From assembly GCA_001548435.1 (NCBI GenBank), contig AP017308.1, positions 5,217,030 to 5,281,029 of the forward strand: a stretch of DNA of 64,000 nucleotides, written 5' to 3'. Below are positions 4,761 to 18,435 of this stretch, one piece after another. Source of the stretch: Leptolyngbya sp. NIES-3755. GTDB taxonomy: Bacteria; Cyanobacteriota; Cyanobacteriia; Leptolyngbyales; Leptolyngbyaceae. The notes beneath the pieces are model-generated. The model was given only the letters and a program-made list of their open reading frames with translations, was not told the DNA's origin and searched no databases. The translations under genes and the position numbers were made by a program. How positions within the stretch are numbered: position 1 is the first letter of the stretch; every line of letters begins with the position of its first letter.

Positions 4761-6902
4761 ATGAAGAACGAATCCGCTACACCTTCGCGCCCAGTTCAGG
4801 TCTCTACCAGTCGCGGCGATCGTAAACACACCCCGAAAGCGAATCTCAAAGGACTGTATCAACGAGCCATTCGAGAATCTTTTATCAAGCTAGATCCACG
4901 AATTGCGGTGCGAAATCCAGTCATGTTTGTCGTGTGGATGGGAACGATCGTGACGCTATTAGTTACCATCAATCCAAATCTGTTTGGAACCGTTCAATCA
5001 GATATTGGTCAACAGCGATCGCTCAATGGCATCATCACGTTTATTCTCTTTTTCACGGTTTTATTTGCTAATTTTGCGGAAGCGATCGCAGAAGGACGAG
5101 GAAAAGCACAAGCAGACGCTTTAAGATCAACCCGCTCCGACACGATTGCGCGTAAGATACTGCCCGACAGCAAGATTCAGGAAGTGAACTCGACCGAATT
5201 GCGCCGAGGCGATCAGGTAAAAGTGACTGCGGGAGATATGATTCCTGCCGATGGCGAAGTGATTCAGGGAATGGGTTCTGTGGATGAATCAGCCATTACC
5301 GGGGAATCTGCGCCTGTTTTGAAACAACCCGGTACAGACATTGCGAGTTCTGTCACAGGGGGGACTCGTCTACTATCGGATGAACTGATTGTGCGGATCA
5401 CGTCTGATCCGGGTCAGGGATTTATCGATCGTATGATTTCCCTCGTCGAAGGAGCCGAACGCAGCAAAACCCCGAATGAAATTGCTCTAACGGTTTTACT
5501 GGCAGTGCTGACTCAGGTGTTTCTGATTGTTGTTGCGACGACTCCCTCGATTTCTGGCTACATTGCTAGTTTCTTAGATAGTACTGTCGGAACACCAACA
5601 GGTAACAGTCTCCGCTCTGGAACCAGTATTGCCATTCTCATCTCGCTTTTGGTGGCGCTGATTCCGACTACGATCGGCGGATTGTTAAGTGCGATCGGGA
5701 TTGCAGGGATGGACCGGGTCGCTCAATTCAACGTGATTGCTACCTCTGGACGTGCTGTAGAAGCTTGCGGTGATGTCAATACGCTCGTTTTGGATAAAAC
5801 CGGGACGATTACATTGGGAAACCGTTTAGCTGATGAGTTTATTCCCGTTAATGGTCATTCCGTTGAGGAAGTTGCTCGGATTTGTTTAGCTGCCAGTCTC
5901 TTTGATGAAACCCCGGAAGGAAGATCGATCGTTCAACTCGCTCAAAGATTAGGTGCAAGATTCGATCTCAATGGGCAAGCCGCAGAAGGGATCGAATTCT
6001 CCGCCCGGACTCGCATGAGTGGAACCGATTTAGATAGCAACGAGTACCGCAAAGGAGCAGTAGACGCGATCAAAGGATTTGTGCGATCGCGTGGAGGTCA
6101 AGTTCCTACATCACTCGATCAAGCTTATGAACGAGTGTCTCGCCTTGGGGGAACACCGCTTGCTGTCTGCGAAGGCAATGATATTTACGGTGTGATTTAC
6201 CTCAAGGACATTGTAAAACCAGGATTGCGAGAACGATTTGATCAACTGCGACGCATGGGAGTAAAAACGATCATGCTAACTGGAGATAATCGCATTACGG
6301 CATCTGTAATCGCTCAAGAAGCTGGAGTCGATGATTTTATTGCCGAAGCGACTCCTGAAGACAAAATCGATGTAATTCGGGGTGAACAGTCTCAAGGTAA
6401 GCTCGTTGCGATGACCGGAGATGGAACAAATGATGCTCCCGCTCTAGCTCAAGCCAATGTGGGTGTAGCCATGAATTCCGGGACACAGGCAGCCAAAGAA
6501 GCAGCGAACATGGTGGACTTAGATTCTGATCCCACTAAACTGATCGATCTCGTGACGATCGGTAAACAATTACTGATTACTCGTGGTGCATTAACCACCT
6601 TCTCTGTTGCCAATGACATCGCCAAATACTTTGCGATCATTCCCACAATCTTTGCTGCTGCTGGAATCGGAGCGCTGAACATCATGGGCTTAAAAAGTGC
6701 CCAATCTGCGATCGTCTCTGCTCTAATTTATAACGCTGTCATCATCCCCGTTCTGATTCCTCTAGCACTGCGAGGTGTTCAGTTTCGACCGCTCACTGCC
6801 GATCAACTTCTGCAACGCAACATTTTGATTTATGGATTGGGCGGCATTATTGCGCCATTTATTGCCATTAAAGCGATCGACCTAATTCTGCCACTGTCTT
6901 AA
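4761..6902 (+). CDS. kdpB: K(+)-transporting P-type ATPase subunit B
   Basis: 713 residues, slightly longer than E. coli KdpB because of an N-terminal extension rich in basic and Ser/Thr residues. It is the catalytic P-type ATPase subunit that energises K+ uptake. Visible P-type motifs: actuator ITGES, phosphorylation motif DKTGTIT with Asp345, ATP-binding RKGAVDAI, and the hinge [12 protein letters not shown]. It sits between kdpA and the small kdpF/G-like gene with short gaps of 11-15 bp, consistent with a single transcript. Confidence 0.97.
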
Positions 6903-6913
6903 TTCTCTTAACT

Positions 6914-7174
6914 ATGAATCTCCATCCTCTAAAATCATCCCTTCCCGTCTTGGAAACAGTTTCAGAAATCTGGTTCCAATCGCGCAAACAAAAACTACCC
7001 CGGTACTTATTTCTAGCGTTATGCTTCAACCTGATTGTTGCGCCTGTGGTTTATGCTGCGAGTAGCAATGAAGTCTCCCGGACTCAAGCCTGGACATTAG
7101 GGCTACTGGGAATAGGAACCGTAGCACTTTCTATCTATCTGTTCTTTGTCATGTTTGTACCGGAGAAATTCTAA
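6914..7174 (+). CDS. Small Kdp accessory membrane protein (KdpF/KdpG-like)
   Basis: 86 residues with two predicted membrane segments (about 30-49 and 62-81). The C-terminus YLFFVMFVPEKF resembles the end of the tiny KdpF peptide that stabilises the KdpABC complex. The longer N-terminal half matches the arrangement of cyanobacterial kdp operons, which carry a gene called kdpG between kdpB and kdpC. Its stop overlaps the kdpC start by one base (TAATG), implying coupling. The role in complex stability is inferred from position and the KdpF-like tail. Confidence 0.8.
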   Translation: MNLHPLKSSLPVLETVSEIWFQSRKQKLPRYLFLALCFNLIVAPVVYAASSNEVSRTQAWTLGLLGIGTVALSIYLFFVMFVPEKF

Positions 7175-7776
7175 TGAGTGTTGTACGCGAAGCAGGTAGA
7201 GCCATTCGAGCTACCCTGGTATTCTGGGTGATTACTGCCCTTATTTACCCGTTGCTGATGGTTGCTGTTGGGCAAATTGCCTTTCCGTTTCAGGCAAATG
7301 GAAGCATTCTCACTAATGCTCAGGGTCAACCTGTCGGATCAGCTTTAATTGGACAGCCTTTTAGTAGCGATCGCTATTTTAACAGTCGTCCCAGCACAAC
7401 CAGTTACAGCACCGCTGATCCAACCAAGGATACTGCTGGTATTTTGAAAACGGGTGTGTCAGGTGCGAGTAACTTAGCTCCTTCCAATCCTGATTTGCTC
7501 AAGCGAGTTCAAGAAACAGTGGCTCAATTAAAACAGGCAGGCATTGAACCCACCGCTGATCTGATCTACACTTCTGGTTCCAGCCTTGATCCTCATATCA
7601 CTCCCGAAGCTGCCCAAGCGCAGATCGCACGAGTGGCAAGAACGCGAGGACTCCAATCGAATCAACTCGAAGCGTTGATCAATCAGAATACGGACAGTCG
7701 TTTCTTAGGCATTTTTGGTGAACCAGGAGTCAATGTCTTGAAGCTTAATCTAGCGCTGGATGCTCTTAGTCGCTAG
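7174..7776 (+). CDS. kdpC: K(+)-transporting ATPase subunit C
   Basis: 200 residues, normal for KdpC, the single-span subunit that assists ATP binding in the KdpFABC complex. It has one N-terminal membrane helix (about 12-35), then the conserved GQPFSSDRYFNSRPS block, the GASNLAPSNPDL motif and the C-terminal GVNVLKLNLALD. It is translationally coupled to the preceding small gene by a 1-nt overlap. Confidence 0.96.
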   Translation: MSVVREAGRAIRATLVFWVITALIYPLLMVAVGQIAFPFQANGSILTNAQGQPVGSALIGQPFSSDRYFNSRPSTTSYSTADPTKDTAGILKTGVSGASNLAPSNPDLLKRVQETVAQLKQAGIEPTADLIYTSGSSLDPHITPEAAQAQIARVARTRGLQSNQLEALINQNTDSRFLGIFGEPGVNVLKLNLALDALSR

Positions 7777-7820
7777 ATTATCACGACTTTCAAACTGATG
7801 TATTGCTGCTTTCTAAATCA

Positions 7821-8957
7821 ATGTACCACTCATCCAATCCCTCTCCTGATAGTTCCTACATCCGCCCTGCCCAGCGAGGAAAGCATAAAATCTTTATTGG
7901 CATGGCACCCGGTGTGGGTAAAACCTACCGAATGCTAGAAGAGGGGCATCGTCTTCGGCAAGAGGGAATGGATGTCGTCGTTGGTTTACTCGAAACCCAC
8001 AATCGGCAAGAAACAGCACAGCGCTCAGAAGGGCTAGAAGTGGTTCCTCGGCATCAAATTAACTGCACTGACATCACTTTGTCTGAAATGGACACAGATG
8101 CGATCCTTGCTCGTCAACCGCAACTGGTCTTGATTGATGAACTCGCTCATACCAATGTCCCTGGTTCTGGGCGGGAAAAACGCTATCAGGATGTAGAAGT
8201 CGTTTTGGCGGCAGGGATTGATGTCTACTCAACCGTGAACATTCAGCATTTAGAAAGCCTCAATGATTTGGTTGCTCGAATTACAGGGATTGTGGTTCGA
8301 GAACGAATTCCCGATCGCTTATTGGAAGAAGCGGATCAGGTAGTATTGATCGATGTGACCCCGGAGACGCTAGAAGAGCGCCTAAAAGACGGTAAAATCT
8401 ACGCCCCTGAGAAAGTTGATCAGTCTCTACAAAACTTCTTTCAGCGGCGTAATCTTATCGCTTTGAGAGAACTGGCACTGCGAGAGATCGCGGACAACAT
8501 TGAAGAAGATGCCCTTGAGCAAGCCTCAAATGGAATCGAAACGAATGCTCCTTATTGCAACATTCACGAACGGGTATTAGTGTGTGTCTCAACGTATCCC
8601 AATGCCATTCAACTGATTCGGCGCGGCGCTCGAATTGCTGGGTATATGCACGCTCCGTTCTATTGTTTGTTTGTGAATGATCCAGATCGGTTTCTGACAA
8701 AAGTGGAAAGCTTACACATCGAAACGTGTGAAAGGCTCTGTAAGGAGTTTGGTGGAGAATTTATTCGACTGACAGACTACGACAAAGTAAAAGCGATCGC
8801 AGAAATCGCCAGAACCTACCGCATTACTCAGATTGTGATCGGGGAGAGTCAGCGATCGAGATGGAGATTAATGCTGCGTGGCTCCCTCACTCATAAATTA
8901 TTGCGATCGCTGAAAAACATTGATGTTCACATCATTGCAACGGACAAAACAAGCTAG
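7821..8957 (+). CDS. kdpD: Truncated KdpD: sensory N-domain plus UspA domain, no kinase
   Basis: 378 residues from the ATG at 7821; an in-frame TTG at 7803 would add six residues. It contains the KdpD N-terminal domain with Walker A GMAPGVGKT (27-35) and the LIDELAHTN segment, followed by a universal-stress-type domain from about residue 245. The four membrane helices and the histidine kinase half of enterobacterial KdpD are absent, and the gene ends in normal sequence, so this is the short cyanobacterial form rather than a broken gene. It may modulate a separate kinase, possibly the divergent one at 1663-2757 (inference). Confidence 0.9.
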   Translation: MYHSSNPSPDSSYIRPAQRGKHKIFIGMAPGVGKTYRMLEEGHRLRQEGMDVVVGLLETHNRQETAQRSEGLEVVPRHQINCTDITLSEMDTDAILARQPQLVLIDELAHTNVPGSGREKRYQDVEVVLAAGIDVYSTVNIQHLESLNDLVARITGIVVRERIPDRLLEEADQVVLIDVTPETLEERLKDGKIYAPEKVDQSLQNFFQRRNLIALRELALREIADNIEEDALEQASNGIETNAPYCNIHERVLVCVSTYPNAIQLIRRGARIAGYMHAPFYCLFVNDPDRFLTKVESLHIETCERLCKEFGGEFIRLTDYDKVKAIAEIARTYRITQIVIGESQRSRWRLMLRGSLTHKLLRSLKNIDVHIIATDKTS

Positions 8958-9111: not shown

Positions 9112-9381
9112 ATGAACCGTGTTACTGTGCAATCTGAATTGTTCGTTGAACTGTCTGATGAACAACAAGAAGTCGTCTCTGGTGGAATCAGCCTGAAAGA
9201 TTTGATCAACACGACCTTCAACTTCAATAATGAGTCGCTCGGATTCAAAGCAGATGCTCAATCAGGTCCGGGTGGCAGCACCGTGAGCCAAATCGTGACC
9301 GCTGAGAAAAGCGCGATCGACACCAGCGCTCTCAAAGACTTTCAACTGAACTTCGATCCGAAGGGCTTGATCGTCTACTAA
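9112..9381 (+). CDS. Double-glycine leader peptide (CTB-like bacteriocin/secreted peptide precursor)
   Basis: 89 residues from the ATG at 9112, preceded by GAGGAAATCATT. The leader contains SELFVELSDEQQEVV and ends in SGG at about residue 25, the cleavage signal recognised by C39 peptidases of peptide-exporting ABC transporters. The mature part (about 64 residues) contains SGPGGSTV and resembles small cyanobacterial peptides annotated as CTB-family bacteriocins; it has no cysteines, so lanthionine or disulfide chemistry is unlikely. The exporter genes follow directly. Activity as a bacteriocin is not shown by the sequence; a signalling or matrix peptide is equally possible. Confidence 0.8.
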   Translation: MNRVTVQSELFVELSDEQQEVVSGGISLKDLINTTFNFNNESLGFKADAQSGPGGSTVSQIVTAEKSAIDTSALKDFQLNFDPKGLIVY

Positions 9382-9403
9382 GTTGGTTTGATCGACGCAT
9401 CGT

Positions 9404-9437
9404 AAAGATCTCCGATCGCAGTTCATCGGAGATCTTT
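9404..9437 (+). terminator. Hairpin between precursor and exporter genes
   Basis: A perfect 13-bp stem, AAAGATCTCCGAT pairing with ATCGGAGATCTTT, with an 8-nt loop, starting 22 bp after the precursor stop codon. There is only a short T stretch, so it may act as a partial terminator or RNA stabiliser, allowing more precursor than exporter mRNA, a common arrangement in peptide-export operons. Confidence 0.65.
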
Positions 9438-9461
9438 CCTAAATCTACTCAGGAGCCTGAT

Positions 9462-10748
9462 ATGGAAGAAACCCCCATTCAAGTTCCAACCCTCAGTCAC
9501 AACGAGTTCCTACCGCGTCTGAGTCCTTGGGCGATCGCGGGTGGTGGGGTGATGCTGACGGTGTTTGGAGCAGCCATTGTGTTGTCTACAGTGCTGAAGT
9601 ATAACGTGACGGTGAAAGCGCCTGCGACGGTGCGACCTGCGGGAGATTTGCGACTGGTGCAATCTGCGATCGAGGGAACGGTGAAAGAGATCACGGTGAA
9701 AGAGAATCAGAAAGTGAAAGCGGGTGATATTGTTGCTCGGATGGATGATTCTCGATTGATGACGACAAAGAGTCAGCTTGAAGGTGATTTGCGACAGGGA
9801 AGATTGCAATTAAATCAGGTGAATGCTCAGATTCAAGCACTAGATAGTCAGATTGCAGCCGAATCGAATGTGGTCGATCGGAGTGTTCAAGCCGCAGAAG
9901 CTCAATTGAGAAGCCAGCAAAGAGTGTTCCAAGATCAGCAGTCAACTGCCGCATCGAATGTAGATGAAGCGAGAGCGGCACTGAATTTGGCACAGGATGA
10001 ATTGAGACGATTTCGACAGTTAGCAGCACAGGGAGCAGTTCCAGCACTGACCTTGAAAGCAAAAGAAGCAGCGGTTCAAGTCGCACAAGCAAAAGTCGAT
10101 CGAGCCAGTACCGCTTTGAATCCAACGGATGCTGAAATTGCCAGAGCACAGGAAGAAATTGCTCAAACTCAAGCACGAGGAGCTTCGACACTCGCAACAT
10201 TGAGACAGCAGCGAGAACAGTTATTGCAAAACCAGATTGAACTTCAGCGACAACTCGATCGCACTTCAAAAGAATTGCAGCAGGTTGAACGCAGCTTTGA
10301 TCAAAGTGTCGTTCGTGCACCGATTTCGGGAACGGTTCTGCAATTGAACTTACGCAATGCGGATCAAGTGGTGCGATCGGGAGAAGCGATCGCGTTTATT
10401 GCACCTCAAAATGCTCCGTTTGTTCTGAAAGGTCAAATCGCGGCACAGGACATCGATAAAGTGAAACCTGGACAAACCATTCAGATGCGGGTTTCAGCTT
10501 GTCCATTCCCCGATTATGGAACCTTGAACGGTGTGATCAAAACGGTTGCTCCGGATGCTCGACCTGCGATCGAGAATGCCCCTGCCACCTATGAAATCAC
10601 GATGGAGCCTGCTCAATCTTTTGTTGGAGATGAACGGCGGCAATGTCCGTTACAAGCAGGCATGGAGGGAAGTGTTGATGTGATTTCACGTCAAGAAACG
10701 GTGGTGCAATTTTTACTGAGAAAGACGCGACTGATCTCAAACCTCTAA
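9462..10748 (+). CDS. HlyD-family periplasmic adaptor (membrane fusion protein)
   Basis: 428 residues. One N-terminal membrane helix (about 21-45) is followed by a biotinyl-lipoyl half-motif with VRPAGDLRLVQSAIEGTVKEI, a long alpha-helical/coiled-coil hairpin (about 105-285, rich in Q, A and E) and the second lipoyl half with VVRAPISGTVLQLNL. It is the adaptor that links the inner-membrane ABC exporter to an outer-membrane channel in type I secretion. A good ribosome site (CAGGAGCC) precedes the ATG. The exporter gene begins 5 bp after its stop. No TolC-like gene lies in the window, so the outer channel must be encoded elsewhere. Confidence 0.94.
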   Translation: MEETPIQVPTLSHNEFLPRLSPWAIAGGGVMLTVFGAAIVLSTVLKYNVTVKAPATVRPAGDLRLVQSAIEGTVKEITVKENQKVKAGDIVARMDDSRLMTTKSQLEGDLRQGRLQLNQVNAQIQALDSQIAAESNVVDRSVQAAEAQLRSQQRVFQDQQSTAASNVDEARAALNLAQDELRRFRQLAAQGAVPALTLKAKEAAVQVAQAKVDRASTALNPTDAEIARAQEEIAQTQARGASTLATLRQQREQLLQNQIELQRQLDRTSKELQQVERSFDQSVVRAPISGTVLQLNLRNADQVVRSGEAIAFIAPQNAPFVLKGQIAAQDIDKVKPGQTIQMRVSACPFPDYGTLNGVIKTVAPDARPAIENAPATYEITMEPAQSFVGDERRQCPLQAGMEGSVDVISRQETVVQFLLRKTRLISNL

Positions 10749-10753
10749 GAACT

Positions 10754-12913
10754 ATGGTTGCTTCATTCAAACAAGGATATGCCTGTGTTTCTCAATTGAG
10801 CGAAGAAGATTGTGGAGCAGCTTGCCTCGCCTCAATTAGCAAACACTACGGACAAGTCATTAGTATTGCACGATGTCGAGAAGCCGTTGGAACAGGACAA
10901 CTCGGAACGACGCTGTTAGGGCTGAGACGCGGATTTGAAACATTGGGATTCAAAACGCGATCGGTCAAAGTTTCAGAACAAGTTCTCGATCGACTAAATG
11001 AACTACCATTGCCCGGTGTGATTCACTGGCAGGGTTATCACTGGGTGGTGTTCTACGGCAAGCGGGGACGAAAGTTCGTGATTGCTGATCCGGCTTTGGG
11101 ATTGCGCTATGTCGATCGACAAGAACTAATGTCGGCTTGGAATGGCATTATGTTGCTGTTGGAGCTTGACACGGAGACTTTTTCGCAGACGAAACCGGAT
11201 GAAAAGAGCGGGTTTGGGCGATTTTTGGCGCGGATTTTGCCGTATCGATCGCTTCTACTCAGTGCATTGCTAATCAATCTCGTATTAGGCGTTCTTTCGT
11301 TAGCGAGTCCATTCCTGCTTCAAATTCTCACCGACGATGTTTTAGTGAGACAAGATGCTCAGCTTCTTACTGTAGTCGTTGTCAGTGTGATTGTTCTGAG
11401 CTTATTTAGCGGAAGCTTACAGCTATTACAATCGACTTTGATTGCTCACTTTAGTCAAAGATTACAGTTAGGATTCGTGCTGGAATTTGGGTATAAGATT
11501 CTTAGATTACCGTTGAGCTACTACGAAACTCGCCGAAGTGGTGAGATCATCAGTCGATTGCGCGATATCAATGAAATTAATCAATTACTGTCTCAAGTGG
11601 TCGTGACCTTGCCCAGTCAGTTTTTCATCGCGCTGATTTCACTGGCTTTTATGTTGTTCTATAGCTGGAAATTAACCAGTGCAGTGATTGTAATTGGGTT
11701 TCTGATGACAGTTTCTGTTGTTCCGTTTCTTCCCACTTTGCAGAAAGCGACTCGAAATCTCTTAGTGCTTTCTTCCGAGAATCAAGGGGTGTTAGTTGAA
11801 ACCTTTAAGGGTGCTTTGGTGATGAAATCGACAAATGCGGCTCCTCAGTTCTGGGAAGAGTTGCAGAGCCGATTCGGACGATTAGCGAATCTCAACTTTA
11901 GTACCACTCAGATTGGGATTGTGACGGGCACCTTTACGCAGCAAGTTAGCAGAATTGGCAGTGTTCTACTGTTGGGATTGGGGAGCTATTTAGTCATCAA
12001 TAAAGAACTTAGTATTGGTCAATTGTTAGCATTTAATGGAATGCAGGGGAATGTTCTCGCATTCATGAGCGCGATTCTGGGATTGGTGGATGAATACTAT
12101 CGATCGCAAACCGCAGTCAGTCGCGTTTCAGAAGTAATCGATGCGACTCCAGAAGTTCAGAACCAGACACAGAAACCGTTTGCTCATCTCTCTAGTGAAG
12201 CGGATATCGTCTGTAATCGATTGAATTTCCATCATGCAGGACGAGTTGATTTGATGGAAGATTTTTCTCTGAGCTTGCCGGGTGGAACTGCGATCGCATT
12301 AATCGGTACATCGGGCTGCGGAAAAAGCACTTTAGCAAAACTAATCGCGGGACTCTACGAACCTAATTCTGGCAACATTCGGGTTGGTTACTACAACTTA
12401 CAAGATCTCTCACTCGATTGTTTACGCCAACAAGTCGTTTACGTCCCCCAAGATGCTCATTTCTGGAGTCGAACGATCGTTGAAAATTTCCGTTTAGGAA
12501 CTCCATACATTTCATTTGAACAGATTGTTAAAGCGTGTCAAATGGCTGGGGCAGATGACTTTATTAGCCAGCTACCCAACCAATATCAAACAGTGCTCGG
12601 AGAATTTGGAGCGAACCTTTCTGGAGGACAACGGCAGAGATTAGCGATCGCTCGCGGAATTGTGACTGATCCGCCTGTATTAATCCTGGACGAATCGACC
12701 GCAGGGCTTGATCCGGTCAGTGAAGCTCAAGTCCTCGATCGCTTACTCAAATCGAGACGGGGTAAAACGACCATCATGATTACGCATCGTCCGAGTGTGA
12801 TTGATCGATCGGATTGGGTGGTATTGCTCGATCGAGGTCAGGTGAAAATTCAGGGATCTCCAAGCGAACTCAGAGCTAAGTCTGGCGAACATTTGAAATT
12901 TTTATCGTATTAG
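10754..12913 (+). CDS. Peptidase-containing ABC exporter (C39 peptidase, PCAT)
   Basis: 719 residues in three parts. The N-terminal C39 peptidase (1-135) carries the oxyanion Gln14 and catalytic Cys20 in QLSEEDCGAAC, His96 in GYHWVV and Asp112 in IADP, so it should be active. A six-helix exporter domain spans about 165-440. The ATPase has Walker A GTSGCGKST (518-526), signature LSGGQRQRLAIARG (from 622) and Walker B PVLILDEST. It is expected to cleave after Gly-Gly leaders and export the mature peptides; double-glycine precursors lie on both sides (9112 and 12925). Confidence 0.95.
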   Translation: MVASFKQGYACVSQLSEEDCGAACLASISKHYGQVISIARCREAVGTGQLGTTLLGLRRGFETLGFKTRSVKVSEQVLDRLNELPLPGVIHWQGYHWVVFYGKRGRKFVIADPALGLRYVDRQELMSAWNGIMLLLELDTETFSQTKPDEKSGFGRFLARILPYRSLLLSALLINLVLGVLSLASPFLLQILTDDVLVRQDAQLLTVVVVSVIVLSLFSGSLQLLQSTLIAHFSQRLQLGFVLEFGYKILRLPLSYYETRRSGEIISRLRDINEINQLLSQVVVTLPSQFFIALISLAFMLFYSWKLTSAVIVIGFLMTVSVVPFLPTLQKATRNLLVLSSENQGVLVETFKGALVMKSTNAAPQFWEELQSRFGRLANLNFSTTQIGIVTGTFTQQVSRIGSVLLLGLGSYLVINKELSIGQLLAFNGMQGNVLAFMSAILGLVDEYYRSQTAVSRVSEVIDATPEVQNQTQKPFAHLSSEADIVCNRLNFHHAGRVDLMEDFSLSLPGGTAIALIGTSGCGKSTLAKLIAGLYEPNSGNIRVGYYNLQDLSLDCLRQQVVYVPQDAHFWSRTIVENFRLGTPYISFEQIVKACQMAGADDFISQLPNQYQTVLGEFGANLSGGQRQRLAIARGIVTDPPVLILDESTAGLDPVSEAQVLDRLLKSRRGKTTIMITHRPSVIDRSDWVVLLDRGQVKIQGSPSELRAKSGEHLKFLSY

Positions 12914-12924
12914 GAATCAAAACA

Positions 12925-13203
12925 ATGTCTGAACCGATTCATGAACTCTCAGCAGAACAAGAAGAAACCGTAACAGGAGGACTGAGAAGACAGCCCGGAC
13001 TCTTTTCTCAACAACCTGGATTCTTCTTTCAGGACACCGCGATCGATACGTTCGGTGAAAGTCAAACGAGCCTTGATACGGGAGCCGGGAAATTTGACTC
13101 TTCATCGCGAACCGGATATCGACTTCGACAAACGACATTTGCTTTCTTCGGTGATTTTAGTGCCTTGTCTCAATTGTTCAGTCTCTTTCGTCGATTTTTC
13201 TAA
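12925..13203 (+). CDS. Second double-glycine leader peptide, Phe-rich core
   Basis: 92 residues, 11 bp downstream of the exporter and 5 bp upstream of the GTPase-like gene. The short leader reads ELSAEQEETVTGG, ending in Gly-Gly at residues 18-19, so it should be a substrate of the upstream C39 exporter. The remaining 73 residues are unusual: rich in Phe, Arg, Gln and Ser, without cysteine, and ending in a hydrophobic/basic tail LFRRFF. The core shares no obvious similarity with the first precursor. I do not recognise the core family. Its place inside the operon rather than at the front suggests it may be produced at lower levels or act as a signal. Confidence 0.72.
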   Translation: MSEPIHELSAEQEETVTGGLRRQPGLFSQQPGFFFQDTAIDTFGESQTSLDTGAGKFDSSSRTGYRLRQTTFAFFGDFSALSQLFSLFRRFF

Positions 13204-13208
13204 GAACT

Positions 13209-14141
13209 ATGGTTGCTAAAACTTTCAATCTTCTCAGTATCGGTGAACGTGGGGTCGGTAAAACAGTCTTCTTAGCTGGAAGTTACACGGAATTGCAGGG
13301 AGAGTATTCTTCTGAACATCCGAAAGCGGCTTGGTTTGACTGTCAAGATCAAGAAGTTCGATCGAACATTGAAAAAATTCTGTTCCATGTTCAAAACACA
13401 GGGCTGTATCCACCGGCAACGATCAAAATTACGAACTTTAACTTTGATTTGAAGTATCAAGGCTGGTGGGGAGTAAAAACCCGCTGTAAGTTCCGCTGGT
13501 GGGATATTCCAGGAGAAGCCTGTCACATTCGTAACCCTGATTTTCAAGAGCTTGTATTGAAATCACAGGGGTGCTGTGTGTTTATTAGCGCCCCTGGATT
13601 AATTCACGATCGAGAATATGCCCAAACTCTAGCAGATTTATTTGATCAAGTCGTTGCGATCGCATCTCTGGTGAATCAGCAGCGATTGAATTATTCCTTC
13701 GCGATCGTTCTGACAAAGTGTGATTTGCTCGAATCTGGAACAGTCACACAGCTTCAAATCGAGCAAAATCTACAGCCCTTAATCACTCGACTCGATGCAC
13801 TCAAAGCCAGCTACCAGAAATTCTATTCGGCAATCCCAGTCGTCTCAATGCAAGGGACTTCGACTTTAAATGCACGAGGAGCCGCAGACCCGTTACTTTG
13901 GTTACTTGCACAGTTAAACAAACACCATCATTTTCAACCCAATCACAATCTAGCAACAGGTTTAGCTCAAACTGCACTGACACAACAGATGTTCCCATCG
14001 AATCTCCGTAAGTCAGTGGCTCTACTTGCGATCGCCAGTATTAGCCTTCTGGGCGTTGCGATCGCATTGTTATTTTCGCTGGGATTGTTTACGATGACTC
14101 CAGATCAAGTGCCCGTTAATGAGCAAAAAATACATTTCTAA
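13209..14141 (+). CDS. Membrane-anchored GTPase-like protein
   Basis: 310 residues. G1/P-loop GERGVGKT (12-19), a G3-like WWDIPGE (about 97-103) and a G4-like TKCD (about 175) mark a small GTPase fold; the G3 form DIPGE differs from the standard DxxG but keeps Asp and Gly. A C-terminal membrane helix (about 275-300) anchors it, with the GTPase on the N-terminal side. Its last base is shared with the next gene, so the two are coupled and probably act together. It resembles the diverged double-GTPase families found in NTPase-based signalling and conflict systems, by motif appearance only. The junction with the previous gene repeats 19 nt found in front of the exporter. Confidence 0.72.
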   Translation: MVAKTFNLLSIGERGVGKTVFLAGSYTELQGEYSSEHPKAAWFDCQDQEVRSNIEKILFHVQNTGLYPPATIKITNFNFDLKYQGWWGVKTRCKFRWWDIPGEACHIRNPDFQELVLKSQGCCVFISAPGLIHDREYAQTLADLFDQVVAIASLVNQQRLNYSFAIVLTKCDLLESGTVTQLQIEQNLQPLITRLDALKASYQKFYSAIPVVSMQGTSTLNARGAADPLLWLLAQLNKHHHFQPNHNLATGLAQTALTQQMFPSNLRKSVALLAIASISLLGVAIALLFSLGLFTMTPDQVPVNEQKIHF

Positions 14142-15817
14142 TGTTTCTTCTTCTAGGTCAACTGGTCTATACCAGCTTCACGAAAGTTGGATTTAAAGCA
14201 CTCAGTAGTGCTGCAATTCCCCCTGAGATTCAGCAGGCTTTCATTGATCAGATTGTTCATCAACATTGGGATGCCTACAACCCTCCTGAATCGAACTATC
14301 GGGCGGTTTACTTGTATCGAGTTTCTGAAAATCAAACCCTGTTTGGTTGGCTCTATAACGATGGAGCCGATGACTTAGGACGAAAACACATTCCCTATTT
14401 TGTCTGCTACTACTATGCAGGAGAGCTACAGCCAGAGCATTTGGATGTCATCTTCGCCTGCTTAGCAAAAGGAACAGCAACGTTTCTCGATCGACAAGTT
14501 CTCCCAGAGCAAATCGAAAGCGTCGCGATCGCCAATTACGAAACCTACGAGCCTGCCCGAATGGGGGTTTCGATTCCTCAAGAATTGCGAGATCAAACTC
14601 GTCGATCGCTCGATCAAAATAAGTTATTCAAGCTATTTGTCTCAGGCACATTTACAACCCCGATCGATTCTTATCTCGAAGAGCTTTCGCTGAAGGTTCT
14701 AGCCAATACTTCTGGAGGTCGCCACTCTGAAGTTGGATTGTTAGAACCTGCAACCTACGAAGAGATTCTGCTTGCGAAAGCAAAAACGCTTACACCTCCA
14801 GCACCCGCAATCCCGATTAAATTAGGACTTGCTTTAAGCTTCGTTTTACTACTCAGTACTGCCGCAAGTGGATTTTACCTTTGGAGAAATTTACCCAGAA
14901 CAACGCAACCTGAGAACAATTCAACGGCTCAATCTGTAACAACTCCTGAGCAACCTGCTCCGCGCTCTTTCACATTGGGAAGAACACTGAATGCTGCTCC
15001 GACTTGGGCAGTGCTTCTCGACGGACAAACTTTGATCAGTGCCAGCGAAGACTGTCAGATCAGACTTTGGAACTTAGAGACTGGAACGGTGACCCACGCA
15101 ATGTACAGCTATAGCGATACGATACGATCGCTGACGTTAACCCCTGATCGAATGCTGATCAGTGGAAGCGGCGATCGCACACTTGAGTTCTGGAATCTAA
15201 AAACCAATCAACTAGAGCAAACACTCAATCACGGCAGTCCAGTGTGGGCAGTTGCGACCAACAAAGACACGCTCTTTAGTGTTGGAGAAGATGGAAATCT
15301 TAAACTTTGGTCACTGGCGAATCGAACTTTACTCAAAACAATTCCAGCTCATCCAAATCGGATTTTCACAGTCGTTGTCAGTCCAGATGGCAAGACGATC
15401 GCAACCGGAGGAATCGATCGGACCATTAAACTCTGGAACGCTCAAACGGGTGAACTCATCAGAACAATCACCGGACACAACGATGCCGTTCGTGCTCTGG
15501 CATTTAGTCCTGATGGACAAACACTGCTAAGTGCAAGTTGGGATAAAACGATCAAACAATGGAATTGGCAGACCGGTGAACTGTTGCATACCTTTGAAGG
15601 ACATACAGCGCGAGTGGTCTCGATCGCATTTACGCCCGATGGTCAAAGATTCGTGAGTGGTAGCATTGATAACACCGTAAAGATTTGGTCGGTTCAGGAG
15701 CGCAAACTGCTTCAAACGCTGAACGACAACAAAGACTGGGTGTTATCGATCGCATCCGATGGCGATCGCATTGTGAGTGGCGGTAAAGATCAAACCCTTC
15801 GGATTTGGAAGAACTAA
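14141..15817 (+). CDS. WD40-repeat membrane protein with GTPase-partner-like N-domain
   Basis: 558 residues. The N-terminal domain (1-215) opens with QLVYTSFTKVGFKALSSA, reminiscent of GTPase-associated N-domains encoded beside diverged GTPases. A membrane helix lies at about 225-248, then a Ser/Thr/Pro linker, then about seven WD40 repeats (285-558) with typical DGQTLLSASWDKTIKQW blades, forming a propeller. It starts on the last base of the GTPase gene. The sensible model is a GTPase plus a propeller scaffold in one membrane complex linked to peptide secretion; that is inference from coupling and operon position. Confidence 0.78.
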   Translation: MFLLLGQLVYTSFTKVGFKALSSAAIPPEIQQAFIDQIVHQHWDAYNPPESNYRAVYLYRVSENQTLFGWLYNDGADDLGRKHIPYFVCYYYAGELQPEHLDVIFACLAKGTATFLDRQVLPEQIESVAIANYETYEPARMGVSIPQELRDQTRRSLDQNKLFKLFVSGTFTTPIDSYLEELSLKVLANTSGGRHSEVGLLEPATYEEILLAKAKTLTPPAPAIPIKLGLALSFVLLLSTAASGFYLWRNLPRTTQPENNSTAQSVTTPEQPAPRSFTLGRTLNAAPTWAVLLDGQTLISASEDCQIRLWNLETGTVTHAMYSYSDTIRSLTLTPDRMLISGSGDRTLEFWNLKTNQLEQTLNHGSPVWAVATNKDTLFSVGEDGNLKLWSLANRTLLKTIPAHPNRIFTVVVSPDGKTIATGGIDRTIKLWNAQTGELIRTITGHNDAVRALAFSPDGQTLLSASWDKTIKQWNWQTGELLHTFEGHTARVVSIAFTPDGQRFVSGSIDNTVKIWSVQERKLLQTLNDNKDWVLSIASDGDRIVSGGKDQTLRIWKN

Positions 15818-15860: not shown

Positions 15861-17117
15861 ATGCCGAATACGATCGCGTTTATTGCTCACAACACTCGCA
15901 AAGATGAAATGGTGCGGTTTGTCTCCGCTCATCAGCCCACCTTTGGACGCTATCATCTGATCGGCACAGCGCGAACCGCAGAACGAATCCAAGCCGCAAC
16001 CGGATTAGAAATCGAACAACGACTTGCTCATTCTCTCGGCGGAACCGTTCAGATTGCGGGCGAAGTGGCGAACGGCAGTATTCTTGCGGTCATTGTTTTG
16101 CTTGATCCAGATGCCGAAACTGAACCCAATTTCCTCGCCTTATTTCGGCTTTGTAACTTATACAATGTTGCGATCGCGACCAATTTATCGACCGCAGAAG
16201 CGATCGTCACTCGACTCGCAAAAACTCGCGTTGCTCACTTAATTTTCAATCCGGTTGCTGGACAAAGAGATGCGAATCAAGATCTAGCGCTGATTCAAGA
16301 ACTCTTAGATCCGCATTTAAGCCTACACATTCATCACACGACCCCAGACATTCAACCGGAAGAACTCGTGAAAGCTGCCCTCTCGAACAATGCTGACTTA
16401 GTAATTGCTTCTGGCGGAGATGGAACGGTTTCTGCCGTAGCGGGTGCATTGATTGGAACAGGAATTCCATTAGGGATCATTCCCAGAGGCACGGCAAATG
16501 CGTTTGCAATGGCGCTCGGTATTCCAGCATTGTTACCTGTTCGGAATGCTTGTCAAGTCATTCTAGCTGAACAAACTCGAAGGATTGATGCGGCTTACTG
16601 TAATGGAATTCCGATGATTTTACTAACGGGCATTGGCTACGAAGCGAATGTGGTTGAAACTGCCGATCGAGCTTTGAAAAAACAATGGGGAACATTGGCG
16701 TATCTCATGGCAGGTTGGCGCGTGATGGATCAACAGCAAGTGTTTCAGATTGAAATCGAAGCAGAAGGAGAGACCTATCAATTTGAAGCAGCCGCAATGA
16801 CGATCGCGAATGCGGCTCCACCCACTTCGATTTTGGCTCAGGGTGCGGGAGAAGTTTTAGTCGATGATGGATTGTTAGATGTGACGATCGCGACCGCAGA
16901 AAACAAGGTTCACGCCGTAACAACGATGCTAAGACTATTGGGAGCCGCAATGACACGAACGGAATTAAATCAGCAAAATGTCATTCATGGTCGTACTCGA
17001 CGATTAAAAGTAACGACCAATCCGGTTCAAAAAGTTGTGGTAGATGGGGAAGTTGTGGGCACAACACCGATCGAGGTCGAATGTATTCCAGATGGTTTGA
17101 CAGTGTTTGTGCCGTGA
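15861..17117 (+). CDS. Methylglyoxal-synthase-like domain fused to a YegS/diacylglycerol-kinase-type lipid kinase
   Basis: 418 residues. Residues 1-130 have the methylglyoxal synthase fold (TIAFIAHNTRKDE, ALFRLCNLYNVAIATNLSTA). Compared from memory with the E. coli enzyme, the catalytic Asp of the GGD motif is Thr (SLGGTVQ) and the HDPD segment is TEPN, so the domain is probably not a working synthase and may instead bind phosphate ligands. Residues 135-418 form a complete lipid-kinase catalytic region with NPVAGQRD, SGGDGTV (from 184) and IPRGTANAFA. The fusion would couple lipid phosphorylation to a metabolite sensor (inference). Confidence 0.9.
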   Translation: MPNTIAFIAHNTRKDEMVRFVSAHQPTFGRYHLIGTARTAERIQAATGLEIEQRLAHSLGGTVQIAGEVANGSILAVIVLLDPDAETEPNFLALFRLCNLYNVAIATNLSTAEAIVTRLAKTRVAHLIFNPVAGQRDANQDLALIQELLDPHLSLHIHHTTPDIQPEELVKAALSNNADLVIASGGDGTVSAVAGALIGTGIPLGIIPRGTANAFAMALGIPALLPVRNACQVILAEQTRRIDAAYCNGIPMILLTGIGYEANVVETADRALKKQWGTLAYLMAGWRVMDQQQVFQIEIEAEGETYQFEAAAMTIANAAPPTSILAQGAGEVLVDDGLLDVTIATAENKVHAVTTMLRLLGAAMTRTELNQQNVIHGRTRRLKVTTNPVQKVVVDGEVVGTTPIEVECIPDGLTVFVP

Positions 17118-17121
17118 ATCG

Positions 17122-18435
17122 CTAACTCGCTAATCTTTCCCGCTGCCAAAGAATGTCTGCAACTCGCGAAATTCCTGTTTTTAGATAGCGTCGATAGGTA
17201 CTAAATGGTAAATCTAAACATTCCGCTGCTTGTTCCTGCGTCGGTGCTGGATTCAAATAAGTTCGATGTAAGGTTCGATAAAGCTTTTCATCTCTGGGTG
17301 AAAGTTGAAGTAGCTCAGCCGCTTCTTGCAACCGCGATCGCAATACTTCAATCCGATCATCAGAAGTCGATTGTTCAATCACTAACCGCGATCGCAATAA
17401 TGGATTCTGATGCAACACATCCGGGCGAACAAAGTGACGAAACGCATCCCAAACCGCCTGATTAAACTCAGTTTGGCTCAAAGCAACTGAAGGTTCTTGA
17501 TCGGGTTCTGAAGGAGTGCGATAGTTCTGAATTCGTTGATGAAACCGATTCCACAAATCATAATTTCGCCAACGTAAATCGGAAATAATCGCTTCTCGTG
17601 CAACTGGATTGAAGACTAATCCAAAGCGCTCAGATTGAATAAATGAGAGTCCGCGTAACCATTCAAATAGTTCATGCACATCGCTTTGCTGTAATAGCTC
17701 AGACAACAATGTTTCCGTGGTTGAATCTGCGATCGCACAAGCTCCTAAAGCAATTCGATGTGTAGAACTCGGAACCTCTTCTAAAAATGTTTCTAGCAAA
17801 ATTTGAGTCACACTAAACGTTGCATTTGAGATTAAACCTGCATCCTGAATATAGAGATCTGCCATCAACAATAAAGCTAATGGATGCCCGGAGGTAAAGT
17901 TAAGAATTTCTGGTAGAGGCGGAACGGATCGTTTTTTAAGATAAAGCTGACTATCTTCAACACTGAGGTTCTGAAGTGCGATCGCATAAAACAAAGCTTG
18001 CCAACCTGGATCAGTCCGCCAAGCAGAACTCGGAGCCATTCGACTCGCTAACACGATCAAAGTTTGCTCTGGTAACTGAGGCAGAAACTCTTCCCGCAAC
18101 CAAGTTTCGATCGGTAACAATCGTTCATAACTATCAATGAACAAAACTTGTCGAGCCGAACCGATGGGGTGATAAGCCTTTAGAAAAGCTTGGGGGGAAG
18201 GGTCAAGCGTTCTGCCATCGAGATAGGTTGTCGGAATGTTCAGAGTTCGACAAAGCTGAGCAAATTGCCGAATTAACATGGTTTTGCCAATTCCGCCCAT
18301 TCCTGAGAGATGCAGCACAGAAAAAGGTAGAGTGCGGGACGCGATCGCAGCTTGAAACAATTCACATTCGGATTCACGCCCCACAAAGTTTTGATGTCTG
18401 ACAGCATTGAGCCGTTCAACTAAACGCAAGGTCAT
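17122..18435 (-). CDS. STAND-type ATPase with C-terminal helical/HTH-like end
   Basis: 437 residues. The N-terminus NFVGRESEC followed by P-loop GMGGIGKT (45-52) and the Walker-B-like VLFIDSYERL is typical of MalT/NB-ARC-like STAND NTPases. A TSGHPLALLLMADL segment (about 185) matches the winged-helix/GxP region of such proteins. The C-terminal 60 residues (AAECLDLPFSTYRRYL) look like a helix-turn-helix, so it may be a transcription regulator or signalling ATPase. Convergent with the lipid-kinase fusion (4 bp between stops). Target unknown. Confidence 0.75.
   Translation of the reverse strand: MTLRLVERLNAVRHQNFVGRESECELFQAAIASRTLPFSVLHLSGMGGIGKTMLIRQFAQLCRTLNIPTTYLDGRTLDPSPQAFLKAYHPIGSARQVLFIDSYERLLPIETWLREEFLPQLPEQTLIVLASRMAPSSAWRTDPGWQALFYAIALQNLSVEDSQLYLKKRSVPPLPEILNFTSGHPLALLLMADLYIQDAGLISNATFSVTQILLETFLEEVPSSTHRIALGACAIADSTTETLLSELLQQSDVHELFEWLRGLSFIQSERFGLVFNPVAREAIISDLRWRNYDLWNRFHQRIQNYRTPSEPDQEPSVALSQTEFNQAVWDAFRHFVRPDVLHQNPLLRSRLVIEQSTSDDRIEVLRSRLQEAAELLQLSPRDEKLYRTLHRTYLNPAPTQEQAAECLDLPFSTYRRYLKTGISRVADILWQRERLAS

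Follow-up and report, generated by a model that had tools for sequence, protein, structure and literature searches.

Why should an operon for the export of small peptides end in a GTPase and a membrane-spanning WD40 protein? This question is raised by a locus of the cyanobacterium Leptolyngbya sp. NIES-3755, found within the 64,000-nucleotide stretch of DNA that was analysed here and is called the window (G000:C1:5217030-5281029, from an assembly of 6.76 Mb in 4 contigs). Throughout, G with a number is a genome (G000 being the window's own), L with a number is the locus around a match, and WDN is the N-terminal domain of the WD40-type protein, the partner of the GTPase. At 9112-15817 of the window, six genes follow one another head-to-tail on the plus strand: double-glycine (GG) precursor 1, a HlyD adaptor, a C39-peptidase ABC exporter, precursor 2, the GTPase and the WD40 protein. 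A preliminary description of this DNA had listed such a set, with GG precursors flanking the exporter and HlyD and a one-base overlap between the last two genes; all of these parts lie where it had placed them, and the set recurs in other lineages. The anatomy of the system, meaning its gene set, recurrence, pairing and domain swaps, is well supported. As to function, we propose with moderate confidence that the final gene pair encodes a G-protein switch at the membrane, in which the regulator is longin-like, with or without an added Roadblock domain, the sensor faces outwards and can be exchanged, and the output would be control of the export operon.

The export part of the locus is of a known type. 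Precursor 1 (9112..9381; 89 aa, with a leader of 25 aa ending EQQEVVSGG and a core of 64 aa beginning with I) scores 68.5 bits against NCBIfam NF038167, 'CTB family bacteriocin', for which the cut-off is 32. The HlyD-type membrane-fusion adaptor (9462..10748) matches HlyD_3 at 65.6 bits (cut-off 22.2), and the exporter (10754..12913) matches Peptidase_C39 at 110.9 bits, with ABC_membrane and ABC_tran likewise over cut-off; among the 25 matches listed, nothing was over cut-off for HlyD against NCBIfam or for the exporter against the NCBIfam exporter models. With a precursor over the NF038167 cut-off, a C39-ABC exporter and an adjoining HlyD, the locus is classed by sequence as a CTB-family GG-peptide export operon. 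In such families, the C39 peptidase cleaves after Gly-Gly and the ABC and HlyD proteins carry the peptide out. Precursor 2 (12925..13203; 92 aa, leader ending EETVTGG before L) scores 26.3 bits against NF038167, below the cut-off, and its relatives match the same model weakly in 9/10 cases and over cut-off in 0/10. Its slot is nevertheless kept behind this exporter type: a peptide whose leader ends in GG, AG or SG occupies it in the 26 inspected loci of a 32-row exporter clade described below, these being the loci where such a peptide is visible (L071, L074-L076, L078 and L084 were excluded). The leader in this slot ends in AG, not GG, in Acaryochloris L024-L027. A CTB operon of Nodularia is reported to be upregulated under phosphate limitation (PMC9846622), and biofilm formation in Synechococcus elongatus is reported to be driven by GG-peptides that leave through a C39 transporter (PMC4997328), so signalling or matrix roles of the peptides are as open as killing. 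Two more CTB precursor arrays occur in G000, at C1:2935241-2936187 (three matches) and 3000481-3001570 (four matches); since only two close exporters were found in this genome, that of the operon and one at 5392296 (54% identical), these arrays may be exported in trans. Many of the loci L091-L111 represent another CTB-type exporter group, in which C39 precedes HlyD and as many as three conserved genes (of about 219, about 230 and 300-640 aa) come next, an accessory set unlike the GTPase/WD40 pair.

The GTPase and its partner travel together. Among 292 genomes of the phylum, GTPase matches at E<=0.001 were found in 16 and matches to a profile at E<=1e-12 in 10, nine of the latter belonging to the close family and one (G155) being distant; the WDN domain was found in 12/292. 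These profile searches scored, in each genome, the best 7 candidates for the GTPase and the best 10 for WDN, and the counts from both may be underestimates. All 9 of the close-GTPase genomes are among the 12 that hold WDN (Fisher 6e-15, kinship not corrected). Six more loci came from a scan of genome contigs: five belong to Acaryochloris and the sixth to Pseudanabaenaceae LEGE 13415. In the resulting set of 19 close GTPase loci (the window and L023-L040), the partner adjoins on the same strand in 14 (the window, L023-L034 and L040). Left out of the pair counts were the distant GTPases L011, L041-L044 and L046, and L045, which has the look of a histidine kinase; nor were L035-L039 and L060-L064 counted as pairs. 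In the window, the GTPase stop codon TAA (14139-14141) and the start codon ATG of the WD40 protein (14141-14143) have one base in common, and precursor 2 is separated from the exporter by 11 bp and from the GTPase by 5 bp; the overlap and the 5-bp gap suggest coupled translation there. On this sequence evidence, the GTPase and WD40-type partner form a real unit, as the preliminary description had supposed.

The unit also shows a link with the exporter. In nine of the 14 pairs (the window, L023, L024-L027 and L029-L031), the genes directly ahead encode HlyD, a C39 exporter and a peptide of the precursor-2 type, and several CTB precursors often lie further upstream; these pairs come from the window's family, LEGE 13415, Acaryochloris and genome G101. 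L023 is a short contig on which only the end of the exporter is visible, too short for the exporter tree. The exporter-linked pairs show two gene orders, the GTPase coming first in the window, L023 and L029-L031 and the partner first in Acaryochloris L024-L027; in L029 about 280 bp separate precursor 2 from the start of the GTPase. CTB precursors occur in 6/12 WDN genomes, compared with 34/292 overall (Fisher 9e-4). Had the pair occurred mainly without the exporter, the linkage would have been accidental by the terms of the preliminary description; narrowly, with nine pairs linked and five not, it does not.

Exporter relationships give this association a history. Exporters were sought in 35 chosen genomes (those with CTB precursors or parts of the pair), and a tree of 68 was built from 64 of the 68 matches above 850 bits (one each being omitted in G005, G064, G103 and G191) plus four Acaryochloris exporters. 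With midpoint rooting, all 8 pair-linked exporters fall into one supported clade of 32 rows, the first split of which separates the four Acaryochloris loci from the window, G289, both G101 loci, the pairless L065 and 23 further pairless rows. The contigs of L085 and L090 end soon after the exporter, and neither the GTPase nor WDN finds a match in their genomes. The pair label requires 3 changes on the exporter tree against a shuffled mean of 7.7, with 0/500 shuffles as low, and the exporter label requires 4 and 3 changes on the GTPase and WDN trees, with 5/500 shuffles as low in each. These patterns fit either a pair that was present early and then lost or one that was recruited more than once. 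On either reading, the association is optional and not accidental. In G024, G042 and G191 the pair lies away from the exporter and an exporter of the same clade is found elsewhere in the genome (L078, L071 and L075), which makes action in trans possible in these three.

The GTPase (13209..14141) has the motifs GERGVGKT, DIPGE and TKCD and one transmembrane (TM) helix predicted from hydropathy at about residues 270-288 (14016-14072), with a short tail after it. Residues K18, T19, D99, P101, G102, E103, C171 and D172 are invariant in 18/18 GTPases, so that the P-loop, DxPGE and the CD of G4 are kept; E103, a Glu of the Walker B region that follows the G3 motif, is thus present in 18/18. Against DO-GTPase2 (PF19993), the window protein scores 18.0 bits (E 0.0024), under the cut-off of 27; a match at E<=1 is seen in 14/18 of the family, and two of the ten GTPases scored individually pass the cut-off (L040 at 39.7 and L029 at 27.8 bits). 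Scores below cut-off were also obtained for the window protein against Pfam Ras (13.6 bits, cut-off 21.6) and for the L040 GTPase against Gtr1/RagA (20.7 bits, cut-off 22). The profile matched no PDB sequence at E<=0.1, and a plasmid search returned no relative of the GTPase on plasmids. By its motifs and model scores, the window GTPase appears to be a distant DO-GTPase2 relative. A helix near the C-terminal third is predicted in 16/18 GTPases (exceptions L038 and L040), and TPR models match 6/18, with the TPRs placed after the helix in L024, L028 and L035, which were examined singly.

Three side observations concern outlying relatives of this GTPase. In G103, the distant GTPase L042:8176-9357 scores 47.6 bits against DO-GTPase1 and 34.7 bits against DO-GTPase2, both over the cut-off of 27, from which it follows that DO-GTPases proper occur in cyanobacteria too; it adjoins a WD40-matching gene at 6556-8148. 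In G133, at L037:7354-10021, the neighbour of a GTPase relative is a Ser/Thr protein kinase (Pkinase 152.3 bits) in place of a WDN protein. TPR-type GTPases from two genera, in L035 (at 8085) and L036 (at 9211), have in common a divergently transcribed neighbour, an uncharacterised protein of about 500 aa.

The partner in the window is encoded at 14141-15817, and its WDN domain (residues 1-172, 14141..14656) has 27 invariant columns over 13 sequences. None of 13 such domains has a significant Pfam match; the best, at E 0.05-0.1, are to four unrelated families with one member each. The domain had been thought reminiscent of GTPase-associated (GAP1) proteins, a likeness that turned out to be structural and of another kind, namely to longin-type domains: no GAP1 model is among the matches for any of the 13 domains (at a limit of E 10, with filters that drop most matches above 0.1), and GAP1-N2 (PF20013), the one GAP1 family sought in genomes, occurs in 0/146 cyanobacterial genomes. 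On these results, GAP1 homology of the domain is not supported. A TagF model, which we take to exist in Pfam, is likewise not among the matches for the 13 domains, and no PDB sequence matches at E<=1.

The fold was approached through an AlphaFold model built from 7 sequences, with a pLDDT of 65 overall and better values at residues 1-110 and 141-170. The model has five strands in the order b-b-a-b-b-b-a and no N-terminal helix, the arrangement expected of the five-strand sheet of a longin domain. Foldseek gave a single match at E<=0.001, TagF 9t0n (E 3.8e-4, TM 0.33/0.24); next came four chains of TagF 6iz8 and then FNIP2/FLCN 6ulg (E 0.011). VIA-align, as a second look at the list from Foldseek and hence at the same candidates, gave Z values of 7.0 for TagF, 6.8 for C9orf72-SMCR8, 6.7 for a Loki Roadblock-Longin protein, 6.3 for FLCN and 6.0 for the Lst4 longin. 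Among the 50 matches listed, 36 belong to complexes with a role in regulating GTPases or membrane traffic (many being further entries for the same proteins, and 5x6u, 5x6v and the KICSTOR chains being presumed to belong here), 3 are TagF (with 2qnu taken to be one) and 11 are others. Work on Asgard archaea describes the longin as a Roadblock fold minus its N-terminal helix (PMC10933270, section 11), and WDN is likened to a longin because its modelled order matches the longin order given there. The fold is thus probably longin-like, nearest, at modest scores, to TagF and to the longin/Roadblock regulators of Rag and Rab GTPases.

What follows WDN varies between partners. In 8 of 19 partner proteins (the window, L023 and L029-L034, assigned because they resemble the window protein over its full length) it is a TM helix and a WD40 propeller; in the window the helix is predicted at about residues 223-246 (14807..14878, hydropathy 1.89/1.73) and the propeller covers residues about 303-556 (15047..15808; PF00400, 198.2 bits, 7 stretches). 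One partner has a TM helix and PBP_like_2 (L060, 3628-5460, 111 bits), possibly an outside ligand sensor on the same regulator. Another has a caspase domain ahead of TM and WD40: Acaryochloris L028:9374-12508, where the caspase domain (53.6 bits) lies between WDN and TM-WD40 and the gene adjoins a TPR-type GTPase. Eight of the 19 (L024-L027, L040 and L061-L063) have Roadblock/LC7 after WDN, and the last, L064, has a region that aligns to these Roadblock/LC7 partners and gives no Pfam match. As full proteins, L027 (27.3 bits) and L040 (25.6 bits) are over the Pfam cut-off for Robl_LC7, six others are below it and L064 has no match; when the post-WDN domains were cut out, 8/9 matched Roadblock/LC7 at E<=0.5, the best at 31.2 bits. 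Among PDB sequences, the cut-out Roadblock region matches 7f8m best (E 1.2e-6) and Streptomyces CvnB5 3leq at E 2e-4. This Roadblock/LC7 test concerns homologous partners, the window protein carrying WD40 instead. A TM helix is predicted in 10/10 of the WD40, caspase plus WD40 and PBP partners and in 0/9 of the rest. Where exporter-linked partners are TM-less (L024, L025 and L027), the GTPase bears TPRs beyond its own TM helix; L026 was set aside here, its GTPase being cut by the contig end. With sensors or TPRs distributed in this way, every exporter-linked pair that is complete carries, on either the partner or the GTPase, a domain that could face the outside. The single predicted TM helix, together with the PBP domain at the same position in L060, suggests that the WD40 propeller lies outside the inner membrane. 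A Gbeta-like contact of the WD40 propeller with the GTPase was considered and rejected, as the predicted TM helix puts the propeller across the membrane.

How might these parts work together? In the mechanism that we propose, GG-leader peptides would be exported through the C39-ABC protein and HlyD, and the last two genes would make a membrane-bound G-protein switch. The GTPase would lie inside, held by its C-terminal helix and regulated by the longin-like inside domain of the partner, whose own helix would carry the sensor, here the WD40 propeller, to the outside of the inner membrane. An outside signal, which could be the exported peptide, the state of the cell envelope or a product of a neighbour, would alter the hold of the longin domain on the GTPase. 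Whether GTP or GDP is bound could then license or damp export by the adjacent exporter, with protein contact as the more probable route and transcription as the less probable one. The membrane helices, topology and longin fold are predicted, and the GTPase-partner contact, the signal and the control of the exporter are what we infer. By analogy with cvn8 and TagF, the pair most likely serves to adjust how active the neighbouring exporter is. Cvn8 is a GTPase/Roadblock/membrane module of Streptomyces in which deletion of any gene is reported to raise expression of the adjacent lanthipeptide cluster (PMC8510531); TagF is reported to repress type VI secretion after translation and to bind Fha (PMC5995506). 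The preliminary description had the pair gating, sensing or protecting against the peptides. Gating and sensing have fair standing, strengthened by the longin/Roadblock likeness; protection fared badly, given the exporters without pairs and pairs without exporters counted below.

A number of results weigh against this proposal. Five of the 14 pairs (L028, L032, L033, L034 and L040) have no adjacent exporter; L040 is on a contig of 6.6 kb, and its genome holds no close exporter. The pair is missing from 60/68 related exporter loci and from 24/32 of those in the same exporter clade, and the precursor-2-type peptide is present behind exporters that lack the pair too. Family f6 (G080, G133 and G237) has the GTPase and/or the partner domain without a close CTB exporter. 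Even the pairing has exceptions, as 5/19 close GTPase loci (L035-L039) have no adjoining partner and 5/19 partner loci (L060-L064; the other 14 are the pairs) have no adjoining GTPase. On the structural side, the AlphaFold model of the GTPase (7 sequences) has a pLDDT of 36 and is unusable, which leaves the partner contact to inference, and profile comparison of WDN with the Roadblock set found nothing. The longin call comes from one AlphaFold model of modest confidence and a single Foldseek match at E<=0.001 with a low TM-score. From E 0.03 the Foldseek list turns to unrelated folds (EspG3, fluorescent proteins and SecB), the other VIA-align rows include bacteriophytochrome/phytochromes, a cephalosporin esterase and a designed protein, and all WDN Z values are below 8, where the tool warns of common arrangements. 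The five exporterless pairs and the 60 pairless exporter loci are the reason why the pair is described as a portable accessory of the exporter.

Alternative accounts of the pair have to be considered against the same evidence. It could be a switch of a conflict system, a divergent relative of DO-GTPase/GAP1 that senses invasion or envelope damage and triggers the CTB peptides or a caspase (L028) as effectors. The DO-GTPase2 likeness, with two members over cut-off, speaks for this, and so does the logic described in PMC7159879, into which fit the Glu after the G3 motif (a DO-GTPase feature), the mostly downstream partner, the TM segments and the variable C-terminal domains, caspase included. 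However, the partner domains match no GAP1 model, GAP1-N2 is absent from the 146 genomes searched and each pair locus has a single GTPase gene. PADLOC, moreover, returned no match for the GTPase and for the WD40 protein only HEAT-ARM_XIII (92.6 bits), inside its WD40 repeats. We consider a conflict switch unlikely. An immunity function, in which the membrane pair would protect the cell against the peptides that it exports, is suggested by position, since the end of a bacteriocin-type operon is a common site for membrane immunity genes. Most related exporter loci, however, do without the pair, and pairs or their parts occur in genomes that have no close exporter. A GTPase with exchangeable sensors would also be an unusual immunity design. 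CTB-like peptides need not even be toxic, as the biofilm role of the S. elongatus GG-peptides (PMC4997328) indicates, and immunity strikes us as improbable.

A further idea is that the pair is a passenger, a portable signalling unit with an unrelated job that came to lie behind exporters by chance or at insertion-prone loci. Five of 14 pairs do sit elsewhere, and the changes of exporter label on the GTPase and partner trees (4 and 3) imply that the association arose or disappeared on more than one occasion. The same trees, on the other hand, show the exporter label clustered, and landing behind the same exporter type in several lineages and gene orders would have a rough chance of 6e-6 to 2e-11, with independence and target sizes assumed. 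The one-base overlap and 5-bp gap, which suggest translational coupling in the window (the L029 gap is about 280 bp), also argue against a chance neighbour, and we judge a passenger to be quite unlikely. The export-controlling switch can itself be put in a bolder form, as a bacterial counterpart of Rag-longin/Roadblock systems, a two-gene membrane module. In it, an exchangeable outside sensor (propeller, TPR or binding protein) would act by way of the longin/Roadblock regulator on a DO-GTPase-like protein, and the GTP state so imposed would gate the peptide exporter directly, export being licensed by an outside cue or by the peptide. We offer this stronger version as a tentative possibility only.

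The proposed switch resembles several known systems and matches none of them fully. With DO-GTPase/GAP1 (Kaur et al. 2020, PMC7159879) it shares a TRAFAC-type GTPase, the Glu after G3, a second gene, membrane segments and variable C-termini, but here the partner matches no GAP1 model, no second GTPase is present and a peptide exporter is linked. Roadblock proteins such as MglB and CvnB are reported to regulate bacterial GTPases (PMC4316618). The conservons CvnA-D and MglA/MglB likewise join a small GTPase to a Roadblock-type regulator, and conservons add a membrane sensor; in contrast, the GTPase here is DO-GTPase2-like by its matching models (MglA being compared through models only), the regulator has an extra, probably longin-like domain, and the sensor is a WD40, TPR or PBP domain whereas that of conservons is histidine-kinase-like. 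Eukaryotic Rag-Ragulator-FLCN/FNIP and Asgard Roadblock-Longin systems also combine longin/Roadblock folds with GTPases at a membrane, and the L040 GTPase has its sub-threshold Gtr1/RagA match; the present system differs in being bacterial and two-gene, with a sensor beyond the membrane, and its WDN relation is at fold level only, with a modest score. TagF, the best fold match of WDN, is a cytoplasmic secretion-system regulator too, but its TM-score to WDN is low, no sequence relation was found and it acts via Fha (PMC5995506). Finally, cyanobacterial GG-peptide exporters (CTB, EbfG) have the same precursors, HlyD and C39-ABC, and differ in that the pair is an add-on here.

What is new is thus a G-protein module of bacterial kind attached to an already known type of export operon. 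The main text of a 2011 survey of cyanobacterial bacteriocin clusters (PMC3140520) contains neither 'GTPase' nor 'WD40', and no paper on the combination of exporter and GTPase/WD40 was recognised by title or start of abstract among the matches listed in the open literature, most subscription papers lying outside that scope. The implications would extend beyond this operon. Control of bacterial peptide exporters is generally attributed to transcription, and the recurrence of a G-protein module on an exporter suggests that secretion is controlled like a switch. For DO-GTPase-type proteins, the outputs of which lack an explanation, peptides in the medium would be an output that can be measured. 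Longin/Roadblock regulation of GTPases, so far known chiefly from work on eukaryotes, Asgard archaea, Myxococcus and Streptomyces, would, if the proposal is true, extend to cyanobacterial secretion with exchangeable sensors.

Some minor features of the locus complete the picture. A 13-bp hairpin lies between precursor 1 and HlyD on the plus strand (9404..9437, from the fold of 9380-9461), with -24.4 kcal/mol and a z of -1.82; 13/200 shuffles are equally good, which makes it suggestive at most. It has no T run, is absent from the list of the terminator scan and so is no canonical terminator, and may be an attenuator or mRNA stabiliser. The motif scan was uninformative, with 7 promoter-like sites against 10.1 expected and 2 terminator-like sites against 8.1 expected; it placed no plus-strand promoter-like site within 12900-14150. 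Directly upstream of the operon, 7174-8957 of the window holds what we take to be a KdpC-like gene and then a short KdpD-like protein. A lipid kinase gene downstream (15861-17117) was considered as a further member of the unit and excluded, since among pair loci it stands beside the pair only in L023. P-loop ATPases of one similarity cluster, presumably with a STAND look, occur near the pair both in the window (17122-18435, minus strand) and in G289 (L029:13178-15334, plus strand, longer).

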